DNA of 64,000 nucleotides from Sphingomicrobium flavum (GTDB lineage: Bacteria; Pseudomonadota; Alphaproteobacteria; Sphingomonadales; Sphingomonadaceae): assembly GCF_024721605.1 (NCBI RefSeq), contig NZ_CP102630.1, positions 62,001 through 126,000 of the forward strand, in the 5' to 3' direction. Positions 26,137-34,951 of the stretch are shown one piece after another (position 1 is the first letter of the stretch; each line of letters begins with the position of its first letter). The notes beneath the pieces are model-generated. The model was given only the letters and a program-made list of their open reading frames with translations. It did no database searches and was not told the DNA's origin. Position numbers and translations under genes: made by a program.

Positions 26137-27858
26137 ATGACCGAGACGAAAGACTGGCAGGACTGGGCCGCCGTGATGGGCCGCACCCAGCAGATGTGGA
26201 TGAAGGCCTGGGCCGATTCGATGAGCGAGGGTGCTGCGCGCCCGGGCTTGGGCATGGGGCCACCGGTGGATGCCAAGGCGATGGGCCCCGATGCCACCCA
26301 ATGGATGGAAGCGGGCGCCGAGGCCTGGGCAAAGGGGCTGGATGCGTGGAGCCAGATGATGCGGCAGATGGAAGCGGCGGGCCAGCAGGCCGATCGCCGC
26401 TTTGCCGCCGAGGAATGGTCGGAAAATCCGATCTTCGAGGGAATGAAGAAAAGCTATCTCGCCTGGTCAGGCCAGATGCTCGACACGGTCGAGACGATCG
26501 ACGGGCTGGACGATGATGCGCGCGAGAAATTGCGCTTCGCGACCAAGGAATTCGTCGATGCGATGAGCCCCGCCAATTTCGCCATGACCAATCCCGAAGT
26601 GCTCAAGCGCGCCGCCGAGACGGGCGGAGAAAGCGTGGCCGCGGGAATGAAGAATTTCTTTGGCGATCTGGCCAAGGGGCAGATGACGCAAAGCCCGCAG
26701 GGCGCGTTCGAGCTGGGCAAGGACCTGGCCGTGACGCCGGGCAAGGTCATCTACGAAACGCCGATCTACCAGCTGATCCAATATACGCCGACCACCGACA
26801 AGGTGCTGGCGACCCCGCTGGTCATCTTTCCGCCTTGGATCAACCGTTTCTACATCCTCGACCTCACTGCGGAAAAAAGTTTCGTCAAATGGGCGGTGGA
26901 TCAGGGGCTGACGCTCTTCATGGTCAGCTGGAAATCGGCCGATGAGAGCATCGCCGACATCACCATGGACGATTATGTCGGCGCGCAGGTCGAGGCCATC
27001 GAGGTCGTGCGCGCGCTGCTGGAAGTGAAGCAGGTCCATACCATCGGCTATTGCGTGGCAGGCACCGTACTGGCGATGACGCTGGCCGGGCTGGCGGCCA
27101 AGAAGGAAGCCGCGCGGGTGGCGAGCGCCACCTTTTTCACCGCGCAGATCGATTTTTCCGAAGCGGGCGAGCTCACCGCCTTCATCGGCGATGAAACGAT
27201 GGCGACGCTGGAGCAACTGACGGCGGAAACCGGCGTGCTCGACGGGCGCGTGCTGGCGGCGACCTTCAACCTGCTGCGCGGGCGCGATCTGGTGTGGAAT
27301 TACGTTATCAACAATTATCTCATGGGCAAGGAGCCGCGGCCCTTCGATCTGTTGCACTGGAACAGCGATGTCACCAACCTGCCGGGCGCCTGGCACCGCG
27401 ATTATCTGGACCGGCTCTACCGCCGCAACCTGATGGTGGAACCGGGCGCGATCAGCGTGCTCGGCCAGCCGGTCGACCTCACCACCATCGAGACCCCGAT
27501 GTACATCCAGGCCGGCGAGCAGGACCATATCGCCCCGCCGTCGAGCGTGTGGAAAATGATGGATCATGCCAGCGGGCCCAAGCGCTTCGTGTTGGCCGGA
27601 TCAGGCCATATCGCCGGCGTGGTCAATCCGCCGAGCGCGGGCAAATATCATTATTCGATCAACGAAAAGGGTCCGACCAGCTTGGAGGCCTTCAGGAAAG
27701 GCGCAACCCGCCATGAAGGCAGCTGGTGGCCCGACTGGATCGAATGGATCAAGAGCGTGGACAGCGACGAGGTGGAAGCCAGCGGCGCGCGCATCCCCGG
27801 CAAGGGCAAGTTGAAAGCCATCGAGGATGCGCCGGGGCGCTATGTCAAAACCCGTTAG
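26137..27858 (+). CDS. phaC: Class I poly(R)-hydroxyalkanoate synthase
   Basis: 573 residues, the class I single-subunit length. The lipase-like box is GYCVAG with nucleophile Cys306; the catalytic Asp is in AGEQDHIAPP and the His in GSGHIAGVVNP. FPPWINRFYILDL is the conserved substrate-entry region. It polymerises (R)-3-hydroxyacyl-CoA into PHA granules in the cytoplasm. No phaA/phaB neighbours are present, but a phasin lies 6 kb downstream. The ribosome site is weak (AGGTGAAG well upstream) and the promoter region is largely taken up by a REP-like pair. Confidence 0.95.
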   Translation: MTETKDWQDWAAVMGRTQQMWMKAWADSMSEGAARPGLGMGPPVDAKAMGPDATQWMEAGAEAWAKGLDAWSQMMRQMEAAGQQADRRFAAEEWSENPIFEGMKKSYLAWSGQMLDTVETIDGLDDDAREKLRFATKEFVDAMSPANFAMTNPEVLKRAAETGGESVAAGMKNFFGDLAKGQMTQSPQGAFELGKDLAVTPGKVIYETPIYQLIQYTPTTDKVLATPLVIFPPWINRFYILDLTAEKSFVKWAVDQGLTLFMVSWKSADESIADITMDDYVGAQVEAIEVVRALLEVKQVHTIGYCVAGTVLAMTLAGLAAKKEAARVASATFFTAQIDFSEAGELTAFIGDETMATLEQLTAETGVLDGRVLAATFNLLRGRDLVWNYVINNYLMGKEPRPFDLLHWNSDVTNLPGAWHRDYLDRLYRRNLMVEPGAISVLGQPVDLTTIETPMYIQAGEQDHIAPPSSVWKMMDHASGPKRFVLAGSGHIAGVVNPPSAGKYHYSINEKGPTSLEAFRKGATRHEGSWWPDWIEWIKSVDSDEVEASGARIPGKGKLKAIEDAPGRYVKTR

Positions 27859-29768: not shown

Positions 29769-30122
29769 ATGAGCGATTTATGGGATGCCGACGAGGTGCA
29801 TGCGCACCTCATCGCCTGCGCCAATGCAGGGCACCCCATCACCTATTCCGAATTGCTGGGCCATCTGGGCTATGCCTTTTCGCGGCCGAAGATGCGCGCG
29901 CTATGTGCCACGCTGGGCGATGTGGATGCTGCAGCGCACGGGCGCGGCGAGCCTGAACTGGCGGTGCTGGTGGTGCGCCAGTCGGACGGGCTGCCGGGGC
30001 AGGGCTGGTGGGTCGCCGAACAGCCACAGGACTATCGCGGGCCATGGGAAGGGCCCAAGGCCAAGCGCTATATCGACCAGCGGCAGCAACGAGTCTTCGA
30101 CTATTGGCGCGACAGGCGCTAA
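29769..30122 (+). CDS. Conserved small protein of unknown function
   Basis: 117 residues, soluble. PITYSELLGHLGYAFSRPKMRALCATLGDV resembles a winged-helix or alkyltransferase-like DNA-binding segment, and ELAVLVVRQSDGLPGQGWW is a striking conserved-looking core. The C-terminus is basic (YIDQRQQRVFDYWRDRR). Homologues are sometimes labelled ribose-phosphate pyrophosphokinase, but none of the PRPP-synthase motifs can be seen, so I do not adopt that name. It is 6 nt after the lipoprotein gene and 10 nt before the pseudouridine synthase. Confidence 0.7.
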   Translation: MSDLWDADEVHAHLIACANAGHPITYSELLGHLGYAFSRPKMRALCATLGDVDAAAHGRGEPELAVLVVRQSDGLPGQGWWVAEQPQDYRGPWEGPKAKRYIDQRQQRVFDYWRDRR

Positions 30123-32191: not shown

Positions 32192-32877
32192 AGCGATTCT
32201 GGAAAAATGTTTCTGCAGAGGCGGTGGAGGGAGGCTTTGCCATCCACCTCGATGGCCGCGCGGTAAAGACGCCGATGCGTGCAGACCTGGTGGCGCCGAC
32301 GCGGGCTCTGGCCGATGCCATTGTCGCCGAGTGGGAAGCTGTGGGCGAGAAGATCGATCCCGCTGCCATGCCCATGACGGGACTGGCCAATGCCGCAATC
32401 GACCGGGTGAGGCCCGATACCGCAGCCTTTGCCGCGAACCTGTCGCGCTATGCCGAAAATGAAATGTGCTGCTACCGCGCCGATGCGCCCGCCGAATTGG
32501 CGGGGCGGCAGGCCGATGCCTGGGATGCGCTGATCGACTGGGCGCAGCAGCGCTACGGCATCGCCTTTACGACGACGACGGGCGTGATGCATGTCGATCA
32601 GCCTGCCGAGACGCTCGAGCGGCTGGTGGCCGAGGTCGCTGGCGAAGACGCCTTTCACCTTGCCGGGCTGTCACCGTTGGTGACGGCCGGGCAATCCCTG
32701 CTGGTGGCGCTGGCCTTGCGACATGGCGAGATGGGCTCCGAAAAGGGCTGGTTGGCGACGCGGATCGAGGAAGACTGGCAGGCCGAACAATGGGGCCAGG
32801 ACGATGAAGCGGTGAAAGCCGGCGAAGCCCGACGCGCCGATTTCATGAACGGCGCGCGCTTCCTCAGCCTGCTTTAA
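32188..32877 (+). CDS. ATP12-family F1-ATPase assembly chaperone
   Basis: 229 residues matching ATP12: KRFWKNVSAEAVEGGFAIHLDGRAVKTP at the start, then TRALADAIVAEWEAVGEKIDPAAMPMTGLANAAID, and CCYRADAPAELAGRQADAWDALIDW. In mitochondria ATP12 protects the F1 alpha subunit before assembly; alphaproteobacteria are the main bacterial group carrying the family. Its stop shares the tetranucleotide TTAA (32874-32877) with the stop of gmk. Confidence 0.9.
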   Translation: MKRFWKNVSAEAVEGGFAIHLDGRAVKTPMRADLVAPTRALADAIVAEWEAVGEKIDPAAMPMTGLANAAIDRVRPDTAAFAANLSRYAENEMCCYRADAPAELAGRQADAWDALIDWAQQRYGIAFTTTTGVMHVDQPAETLERLVAEVAGEDAFHLAGLSPLVTAGQSLLVALALRHGEMGSEKGWLATRIEEDWQAEQWGQDDEAVKAGEARRADFMNGARFLSLL

Positions 32878-33515
32878 TCGTTGGGACGTTCGACCAGCTT
32901 GCGGGCAAGGTCGGCGACATAGGGGCGGCGATGCTTGCGCAGCCGTTCGGCGACGATGATCGCCTCGACCTCGGCAAGGCAGGTCTCCACATCGTCATTG
33001 ACCAGCACATAGTCATATTCGTTCCAGTGGACGATTTCACCCGTGGCGCGGCGCATCCGGCCCTGGATGACCTCCTCGCTGTCAGTGGCGCGGCTGCGCA
33101 GGCGGCGCTCCAGCTCGGCCATCGAGGGGGGCAGGATGAAGATGGAGACGAGATCGTTGCCGAACGCGGTCTCCAGCTGCTGGGTGCCCTGCCAATCGAT
33201 GTCGAACAGGATGTCGCGCCCAGCCTTTAGCGCAGTCTTGATCGGCTCCTTGGGGCTGCCATAGCGATGGTCGAAGACATAGGCCCACTCGGCCAGCTCG
33301 CCATCCTCGACCAGCTTTTCAAATTCATCGTCGCTGACGAAATGATAGTCGACATCATCGGTTTCGTTGGGACGCGGCGGGCGCGTCGTGGCGGAAACCG
33401 ACATGGTGATGGTGGGATCGGCTTCCATCAACTTGCGCGAAATGGTGGTTTTGCCCGCGCCCGAGGGCGAGGAGAGCACGATAAGAAGGCCGCGGCGGGT
33501 CGCTTGGTCTGGCAT
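32874..33515 (-). CDS. gmk: Guanylate kinase
   Basis: 213 residues. P-loop SSPSGAGKTT, then SATTRPPRPNE, DDVDYHFVSDDEFEKLVEDGELAEWAYVFDHRYGSP, the GMP-binding core, and DIDWQGTQQL. It phosphorylates GMP to GDP. Start set at ATG 33515 (MPDQATRRGLLIVLSS); the open frame to 33707 runs back through the phasin promoter and encodes no family sequence. It is divergent from the phasin. Confidence 0.93.
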   Translation of the reverse strand: MPDQATRRGLLIVLSSPSGAGKTTISRKLMEADPTITMSVSATTRPPRPNETDDVDYHFVSDDEFEKLVEDGELAEWAYVFDHRYGSPKEPIKTALKAGRDILFDIDWQGTQQLETAFGNDLVSIFILPPSMAELERRLRSRATDSEEVIQGRMRRATGEIVHWNEYDYVLVNDDVETCLAEVEAIIVAERLRKHRRPYVADLARKLVERPND

Positions 33516-33575
33516 GGAAGGGCCATGCAAAGGCGAGGCCCGCTCGTCAAGGCGTTTGCCATGTTCGACGAGCCG

Positions 33576-33638
33576 TTTGTGCAGTGCAACAAAATACTTG
33601 AAAGGCTTTGCTGCGGATGCTATGTTGCACTGCACAAA
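33576..33638 (+). promoter_or_regulatory. Phasin promoter bracketed by a perfect 16-bp inverted repeat (probable PhaR-type operator)
   Basis: The arm TTTGTGCAGTGCAACA (33576-33591) is repeated as its exact reverse complement at 33623-33638. Between and across them lie TTGAAA (33598-33603) and TATGTT (33621-33626), a sigma70-like promoter with 17-nt spacing. Arm 1 ends just upstream of the -35 box and arm 2 covers part of the -10 and the likely start point. Each arm contains the near-palindrome TGCAGTGCA. TGC-rich sites are the kind reported for the PHA regulator PhaR on phasin promoters, so repression by PhaR is the favoured reading; binding is inferred. Confidence 0.75.
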
Positions 33639-33658
33639 GAGAGAAGAAGGAGACGGCC

Positions 33659-34444
33659 ATGACTGCTGAAGCGACCAAAACCGAACTGACACCGGAGAAA
33701 CCGGCAAGCGAGGCCAAGGACGTTGCAGTGGCCAAAGTGGCAGAAGCGGTCAACGCCGCCGAGGCCAAGGCCGTCGAAGTAAAAAGCGAAGCGAAGACCA
33801 AGGTTGCCGAGGTGAAGACCAAGGCAGCGGGGCAGGCCCGGACCGCCAAGAAGGTTGCCAGGAAGGCAGCCGTCAAGACGGCTCCCAAGGCCACGAAGGT
33901 CACGAACAAAGTGAAAAAGATTGCCGCCAAGAGCGCGCCCAAGACGGCGCCGTTGGCAGCGAAGAAAGGATTTAGCATGTTCAATTTTGATGCCAAGCAG
34001 TGGACCGGTGGTTTTGAACTTCCGACCGCCGACAAGGTCGAAGCGATGATCGCCGAAACCACCAAGAAGAATGAAGAGCTGGTCAAGAAGACCCAGGCCG
34101 CGACCGAAGAGTTTGCGGAACTGGCCAAGGCCAACATCGAAGCCATCGTCGAAGCCGGCCGCATTGCGGCGCAGGGCGCCAAGGCGATCGGCACCAAGAT
34201 GGTCGAAGACAGCCGCGAAGGCATGGAAAAGTCGGCTGACACCGTGAAGGCGCTGGCCGAAGCCAAAAGCCCGACCGAATTCTTCCAGCTGCACAGCGAA
34301 TGGGTCCGTGCGAGCTTCGACCAGATGGTCGCCGAAAGCTCCAAGCTGACCGAAAAGCTGATCAAGCTTTCGGGCGATGCCGCTCAGCCGGTCACCAGCC
34401 AGGCGAGCGTCAACGCTGAAAAAGTTAAGGCTCTGATGGCCTAA
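33659..34444 (+). CDS. Phasin with histone-H1-like Lys/Ala N-terminal tail
   Basis: 261 residues. The C-terminal two-thirds (from about 105, FNFDAKQWTGGF) is an amphipathic helical phasin domain, with EFFQLHSEWVRASFDQMVAESSKLTEK typical of alphaproteobacterial PhaP. The N-terminal 104 residues are low complexity: 1-46 acidic/Ala-rich, 47-103 rich in Lys, Ala and Thr with about 18 basic and 1 acidic residue, like eukaryotic histone H1 or the DNA-binding tail of PhaF/PhaM. It should coat PHA granules and may tether them to the nucleoid. ATG 33659 has a strong GAAGGAGA site; the frame further up to 33608 lies inside the promoter. Confidence 0.9.
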   Translation: MTAEATKTELTPEKPASEAKDVAVAKVAEAVNAAEAKAVEVKSEAKTKVAEVKTKAAGQARTAKKVARKAAVKTAPKATKVTNKVKKIAAKSAPKTAPLAAKKGFSMFNFDAKQWTGGFELPTADKVEAMIAETTKKNEELVKKTQAATEEFAELAKANIEAIVEAGRIAAQGAKAIGTKMVEDSREGMEKSADTVKALAEAKSPTEFFQLHSEWVRASFDQMVAESSKLTEKLIKLSGDAAQPVTSQASVNAEKVKALMA

Positions 34445-34493
34445 CTTATCGTAGCGTTTGTCGGGCGGTGCTTATCATCCGCCCGGTGAGTTT

Positions 34494-34539
34494 GAAGCGG
34501 TCGTCCGGCCTCCCTGTGCCGGGCGGCCGCTTCCTTTTT
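34494..34539 (+). terminator. Rho-independent terminator after the phasin gene
   Basis: GAAGCGGTCGTCCGGC and GCCGGGCGGCCGCTTC form a 16-bp stem with two G-U pairs around an 8-nt loop, followed by CTTTTTC. It lies 50 nt after the phasin stop, ahead of clpS. Confidence 0.85.
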
Positions 34540-34600
34540 CGGGACAGTGGGGAGCCTCAACGCTTGAAGCACGTTCCGATCATGCCATATTTGAGCAGAC

Positions 34601-34951
34601 ATGATGATTCTTGACGATGCGATCCTGATGGCCGGCAAGGCCGATGATGGCGACGACCTTGATACGGGCGTTGCCACCAAGACGCGTGCCAAGACCAAGA
34701 AGCCCAGCAATTACAAGGTGTTGATGCTGAATGACGATTATACGCCGATGGAATTCGTCGTGCTCGTCCTGCAGCGTTATTTCAATATGGGCACTGAAGA
34801 TGCGACCCGCGTGATGCTGCAGGTCCATCAGCAGGGGGTCGCCGTTTGTGGCGTTTTCACCTATGAGGTGGCCGAAACCAAGGTTGCCCAGGTCATGGAT
34901 TTCGCGCGCCAGAACGAACATCCGCTGCAATGCACGCTGGAGAAGGCCTAG
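34601..34951 (+). CDS. clpS: ATP-dependent Clp protease adaptor ClpS
   Basis: 116 residues: a disordered, charged N-terminus followed by the ClpS core with [19 protein letters not shown], the N-degron pocket and ClpA-contact segment, and [23 protein letters not shown]. It delivers N-end-rule substrates to ClpAP. Start could be ATG 34601, 34604 or 34628; the disordered N-terminus gives no help in choosing. Confidence 0.92.

Follow-up and report, generated by a model that had tools for sequence, protein, structure and literature searches.

Two predicted PhaR operators bracketing the phasin promoter of Sphingomicrobium flavum and related site pairs in other bacteria

The phasin locus and its promoter

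The phasin gene phaP of Sphingomicrobium flavum, encoding a protein of 261 aa (33659..34444, plus strand; Phasin_2 PF09361, E 1.4e-23; TIGR01841 above the cut-off), lies in the 64-kb stretch of DNA analysed here, referred to below as the window, which sits in a one-contig genome of 2.34 Mb. Downstream of the promoter, AAGGAG precedes the phasin ATG at 33659, and a terminator-like hairpin is present 3′ of the gene (34494..34533, plus strand), a weak candidate, as one was found and 2.5 are expected in shuffled sequences. Further 3′ lies clpS (34601-34951), matched in 27 of 30 loci of the host family, Sphingomonadaceae (L029-L058, some cut by contig ends). The divergent neighbour, outside the system discussed here, is gmk, encoding guanylate kinase (32874..33515, minus strand), 60 nt from the left arm of the repeat described below. 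A class I PHA synthase gene (TIGR01838) occupies 26137-27858, about 6 kb upstream of the phasin gene, and a second PhaC_N match is located at G000:C1:288180.

Between gmk and phaP there is a 16-nt inverted repeat (33576-33591 / 33623-33638), whose arms, re-checked with a script, are 100% complementary and separated by 31 nt; the window holds no second inverted repeat that is perfect over at least 16 nt and whose loop does not exceed 60 nt. It brackets a sigma-70-type promoter, TTGAAA-17-TATGTT with TG before the −10, assigned by consensus, with the −35 hexamer TTGAAA at 33598..33603 and the extended −10 hexamer TATGTT at 33621..33626, both on the plus strand. This is the only match of its type in 33400-34700, where shuffled sequences are expected to give 0.3, and the transcription start expected from it, about 7 nt after the −10, falls at 33632..33634 on the same strand. 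Each arm holds a near-palindrome, TKKTGCANTGCAMMA, with a TGCA-N-TGCA core and a one-nucleotide centre, and each is a predicted PhaR site with no strand assigned. The upstream site, BS1 (33576..33591, TTTGTGCAGTGCAACA, 25.6 bits), has its core TGCAGTGCA at 33580-33588; its dyad, at 33584, precedes the −35 by 14 nt, counted to the first base of the hexamer, and the gap between site and hexamer is 6 nt. The downstream site, BS2 (33623..33638, TGTTGCACTGCACAAA, 27.7 bits), with its core TGCACTGCA at 33626-33634 and its dyad at 33630, lies over the last bases of the −10 and the predicted transcription start, and ends 20 nt before the phasin gene. The core dyads are 46 nt apart. The sequence-only reading had described a perfect 16-bp repeat flanking a TTGAAA-N17-TATGTT promoter, one arm upstream of the −35 and the other over −10/+1, with a near-palindrome inside each; all of this was borne out by the coordinates, +1 being the start inferred from the promoter, and the distance of 47 nt that it gave between arm centres is true of the arm midpoints.

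When scored with a position weight matrix built from host-family loci (262 arms, the window's own two included), BS1 and BS2 are the top two 19-mers of the window, the next reaching 9.4 bits. The pattern TKNTGCRNYGCANMA occurs at 7 places in the whole genome, two of them BS1 and BS2, and its reversed control at none, whereas TGCRNYGCASMA returned 46 genome rows against 13 for its control, so that the shorter consensus is much less specific than TKNTGCRNYGCANMA. A further pattern, TGCANTGCA, was found at 29 genome places, 26 of them outside the window; all 26 were scored, and the 19 inside predicted reading frames were given no further weight.

PhaR as the probable regulator

Both arms match without mismatch the consensus TGCRNYGCASMA, derived from footprints of PhaR in Bradyrhizobium diazoefficiens USDA110 according to the available part of PMC6201568, BS1 doing so on the minus strand. 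BS1 also matches the Ralstonia PhaR consensus YTKNTGCRNYGCANMAR without mismatch and the right arm matches it with one (by eye); the shorter of the two consensuses has one further match in the window, at 29927. The arms resemble, in addition, the extended palindromes of Sinorhizobium meliloti as presented in the accessible text of PMC12542648. The genes phaR, phaC, and phaZ are all present in the genome. The single PhaR match of the whole genome, a reading frame of 169 aa at G000:C1:1166977-1167483 (stop codon excluded) on the minus strand (TIGR01848 equivalog, E 2.1e-44, above the cut-off), lies 1.07 Mb away, in keeping with the earlier statement that the window contains no phaR. In a sequence comparison with PDB chains this protein gave no match at E up to 1. 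PhaR was found in 144 of 149 host-family genomes, several of which are incomplete or fragmented; phasin and PhaR occur together in 141 of them, phasin only in 2, PhaR only in 3, and neither in 3 (Fisher p 3.6e-4). Upstream of the organism's own phaR (locus L005) one relaxed core lies 168 nt before the domain, accompanied by near-matches, and the best 19-mer scores −6.8 bits; of 30 relatives, 15 have TGCRNYGCA in the 700 nt that precede the PhaR domain.

The motif is also associated with phaZ, the PHA depolymerase gene. Among 30 loci scanned, drawn from the 143 host-family genomes with a phaZ match, 27 carry it at more than 10 bits, 668-780 nt before the C-terminal domain and hence near the gene start, the site of S. 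flavum itself being weak (11.6 bits). In comparison scans the same threshold was exceeded in 4 of 30 TonB-receptor loci, the organism's own included, and in 5 of 85 stretches of 1500 nt from its own genome, chosen for containing TGCANTGCA. No PhaR-like site before the window's phaC is among the window's 12 best 19-mers. Three strong PhaR-like sites were recorded elsewhere in the genome, one of 22.7 bits before a TonB-dependent receptor gene (G000:C1:1896079, L025), one of 20.8 bits before the gene of a small outer-membrane beta-barrel protein (G000:C1:309754, L208), and one of 19.8 bits before that of a large outer-membrane protein (G000:C1:1176558, L015).

These features have counterparts in PhaR systems known from experiment, cited here as far as the text of each source was available. 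In S. meliloti, gel shifts of PhaR (AniA) at phaP1 and phaP2 are abolished by point mutations, accumulated PHB sequesters PhaR and relieves repression, and phaZ is a PhaR target while the biosynthesis genes are not (PMC12542648), in agreement with the motif before phaZ and with the lack of any of the 12 best 19-mers before the phaC of the S. flavum window. Each phasin promoter of S. meliloti likewise has two palindromes, but the copies closely flank the −35 (18 bp apart by the phaP1 coordinates), whereas the S. flavum pair flanks the whole promoter (PMC12542648). B. diazoefficiens USDA110 has two footprinted sites at phaP1 and a single one at phaP4, and PHB abolishes PhaR binding; its sites are placed on both sides of the −35, at a distance of 6 bp, and, unlike in S. 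flavum, not over the −10 (PMC6201568). A further likeness is to phaP1 of Ralstonia eutropha H16, a sigma-70 phasin promoter with degenerate palindromes around a one-nucleotide centre, BS1 being directly upstream of the −35 and BS2 around the transcription start, for which steric hindrance was proposed by the authors; in S. flavum, however, the downstream site overlaps the −10 itself (PMC12849132). Taken together, the consensus match, the single phaR gene, the conservation described below, and the motif before phaZ strongly support PhaR as the probable regulator acting at the site pair, as had been suggested.

Conservation and spacing of the site pair

A phasin was found in 143 of the 149 host-family genomes searched, and the DNA upstream of the best hit was taken from all 143, four weaker second hits being left out of the set. 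The sequence-only reading had made its proposal depend on conservation of the arms before orthologous phasins: two TGCRNYGCA cores 35-60 nt apart are present in 132 of the 143 loci, as against 0-1 per 143 in each of 20 first-order Markov shuffles, and the spacing is 44-50 nt in 131 of the 132 and 58 nt in one. Three of the 11 loci without a pair are cut by contig ends; of the eight uncut ones, four have a degenerate partner (10.6-18.1 bits) 44-47 nt away and four (L106, L113, L122, L125) have a single good site only, so the second site is not indispensable. TTG stands at the −35 place, within a 13-nt search range, in all 131 pair-bearing loci analysed. The distance from the −35 to the upstream dyad is 14-15 nt in 95 of these and to the downstream dyad 32-33 nt in 110, the best −10 is TATTGT, TATTTT, TATATT, or TATGTT in 101, and in 123 the downstream dyad comes 9-11 nt after the start of the fitted −10, which therefore runs into the operator.

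The perfect inverted repeat was considered as the functional unit and rejected. Although present and perfect in S. flavum, it is itself conserved (15/15 core positions complementary) in just 5 of 131 loci, which points to two separate operators as the unit; near-palindromic arms are alike in either orientation, with a mean arm-to-arm identity of 12.2/15 inverted and 11.2/15 direct. A third weak site in the spacer was likewise discarded, the best 9-mers scoring −9.5 bits against −14.4 bits in shuffled spacers but exceeding 10 bits in only 4 of 131 loci. In one genome, G145 (L031), a further relaxed core, the third, stands between the two of the pair.

For the comparison with other lineages, a class-wide model search built on the host-family operator was biased to its spacing, so the spacing claim is based on scans for exact patterns in 385 class genomes, for which that operator was not used as a model. 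Outside the family, at least 72 pairs from 60 genomes are among the matches listed at 46-76 nt: 48 are at 55-61 nt, 6 at 46-54 nt (none at 46-48), and 18 at 62 nt or more. At 15-45 nt, 34 pairs are listed, 22 of them at 15-25 nt and one of the 34 from the host family. Reversed-pattern controls gave rows listed for 6 and 4 of the 385 genomes in the 46-76 and 15-45 nt scans, respectively. A scan of named genomes yielded at least 120 stretches, 80 of them with titles, by which they were grouped. Among the matches listed there, 32 labelled as sphingomonads are at 45-49 nt; of 12 betaproteobacterial ones, 11 are at 55-59 nt, compared with 46 nt in S. flavum, and one is at 37 nt. The remaining titled matches listed comprise 15 from other alphaproteobacteria at 46-67 nt (three at 46-47), 8 gammaproteobacterial at 37-61 nt (one at 47), 7 of the Legionella group at 65-66 nt, and 6 others at 47-64 nt, while the 40 listed without titles divide into 27 at 46-49 nt and 13 at 54-62 nt. 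The 47-type spacing is therefore not strictly confined to family-labelled records, some labels being those of unclassified MAGs. Many pairs of the named and class scans precede phasin-like reading frames, as judged by eye from the translations.

Of 42 class loci outside the family to which promoters were fitted, 34 have the upstream site 14-16 nt from the −35 and 31 have the downstream site at 42-46 nt, compared with 32-33 nt in the family; some of the 42 were found with the host-family model, and at least four are duplicates. Most pairs outside the family thus owe their spacing of 55-61 nt to a downstream site that is about 10 nt further from the −35; the host-family pair is about one DNA turn closer than is usual elsewhere, with its downstream site about 10 nt nearer the −35. 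In the Legionella-group loci L344, L352, L359, L363, L372, L385, and L391, with pairs 65-66 nt apart, it is the upstream half that differs, with 24-26 nt to the −35; steps of one turn therefore do not hold in general. Five loci of other families (L240, L241, L254, L258, L259) have a third core 17-23 nt from one member of the pair, and three genomes of one family (G503:C25:267752, G426:C27:14147, G333:C109:15839) have in common a second pair, which lies in AT-rich DNA with a spacing of exactly 66 nt.

It is tempting to see in the host-family geometry a distinct, phase-set class of PhaR operator, in which, compared with the majority of the other proteobacteria sampled, the downstream site would have moved one turn (about 10-11 nt) onto the −10, the upstream site staying in place, so that each dimer would keep its face towards the polymerase; this is, however, a tentative idea and rather unlikely. 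If it were true, PhaR would make a stereospecific contact with the polymerase or with the partner dimer, beyond mere obstruction.

Repression by PhaR and alternative explanations

The two arms are most probably two operators for the PHA-responsive repressor PhaR, which would close the phasin promoter when no polymer is present; on the sequence and comparative evidence, a probability of about 0.9 is given to this reading. That PhaR binds and represses here, with one dimer on each site, and that PHA titrates it away is carried over by analogy from published PhaR systems. Without polymer, one PhaR dimer would occupy each near-palindrome, the upstream one just 5′ of the −35 (dyad near −49) and the downstream one over the −10 and the transcription start (dyad near −3), and jointly they would exclude RNA polymerase from the promoter. 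One dimer per arm, as already suggested, fits the palindrome view in the accessible text of PMC12849132. Once PHA granules form, PhaR would be drawn onto the granule and the promoter would open; the phasin then made would coat the granule, and displaced PhaR would return and shut the promoter.

The arms could instead be bound by another regulator whose preference for TGCA-N-TGCA resembles that of PhaR, and the strong matches before outer-membrane protein genes of the same genome would suit it, but the arms carry the consensus of footprinted PhaR sites (available part of PMC6201568), phasin and PhaR co-occur in host-family genomes, and the motif is common to phasin and depolymerase promoters, which leaves such a regulator very improbable. 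Still less credit is due to two single operators standing back to back, the upstream arm serving gmk and the downstream one the phasin gene. The gmk start does lie 60 nt from the left arm on the opposite strand, yet gmk is matched in 3 of 30 host-family loci (L029-L058) and in none of 113 upstream stretches, whereas almost every locus has the pair; since gmk is so rare where the pair persists, neither site belongs to it, and the left site holds its distance of 14-15 nt to the phasin −35 in 95 of 131 loci. The least probable of all, with next to no weight, is that the repeat acts as RNA, as an attenuator, riboregulator, or terminator hairpin. A 91-nt stretch folds better than shuffled sequences (z −3.27), but a transcript from the phasin promoter cannot hold both arms, the left one being located 5′ of the −35; arm-to-arm complementarity is kept (15/15) in 5 of 131 loci, and an Rfam search of 33400-34700 at gathering scores returned no match.

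As for the way in which PhaR on both arms would repress, the sequence-only reading had left looping and double occlusion side by side. A short DNA loop of the lac/ara type as the main cause of repression is improbable, even with two strong operators, one each side of one promoter. DNA loops below 50 bp are mechanically costly, and the operator spacing does not amount to an integral number of helical turns at a distance open to looping: 46 nt corresponds to 4.4 turns and the host-family mean of 47.06 nt to 4.5 turns (174 degrees), so the dyads face opposite sides, and the family range of 44-50 nt exceeds half a turn, both of which make looping less likely. The standard deviation of the spacing, 1.20 as against 1.85 if the half-distances were independent, would suit a loop, though misplacement of the −35 would mimic this. 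In the accessible text on Ralstonia, two-site phaP3 fragments are bound at lower concentration than single-site ones, and dimer-dimer contacts and loops are discussed (PMC12849132); in S. meliloti, on the other hand, either site alone sufficed for binding (PMC12542648, as far as available). Double occlusion is backed by the geometry: a dimer would be in the way of the polymerase on BS2, which reaches over the last bases of the −10 and the predicted start, as well as on BS1, 6 nt from the −35, and steric exclusion of RNA polymerase by PhaR thus appears to fit better than looping.

That a phasin promoter can have two PhaR sites around it is known from earlier work, and what is mildly new here is the host-family spacing, with the downstream site on the −10. 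Downstream placement as in S. flavum is not described in the available parts of PMC6201568, PMC12542648, PMC12849132, and PMC3570403, and no operator study of phasin genes in Sphingomonadaceae stood among the open-licence papers listed by literature searches. With comparative support across 143 loci, the site pair would be the switch through which the phasin genes of a large family respond to PHA. The comparison of spacings offers a handle on how two PhaR dimers repress, and the S. flavum promoter may serve as a compact PHA-responsive promoter part of known geometry.
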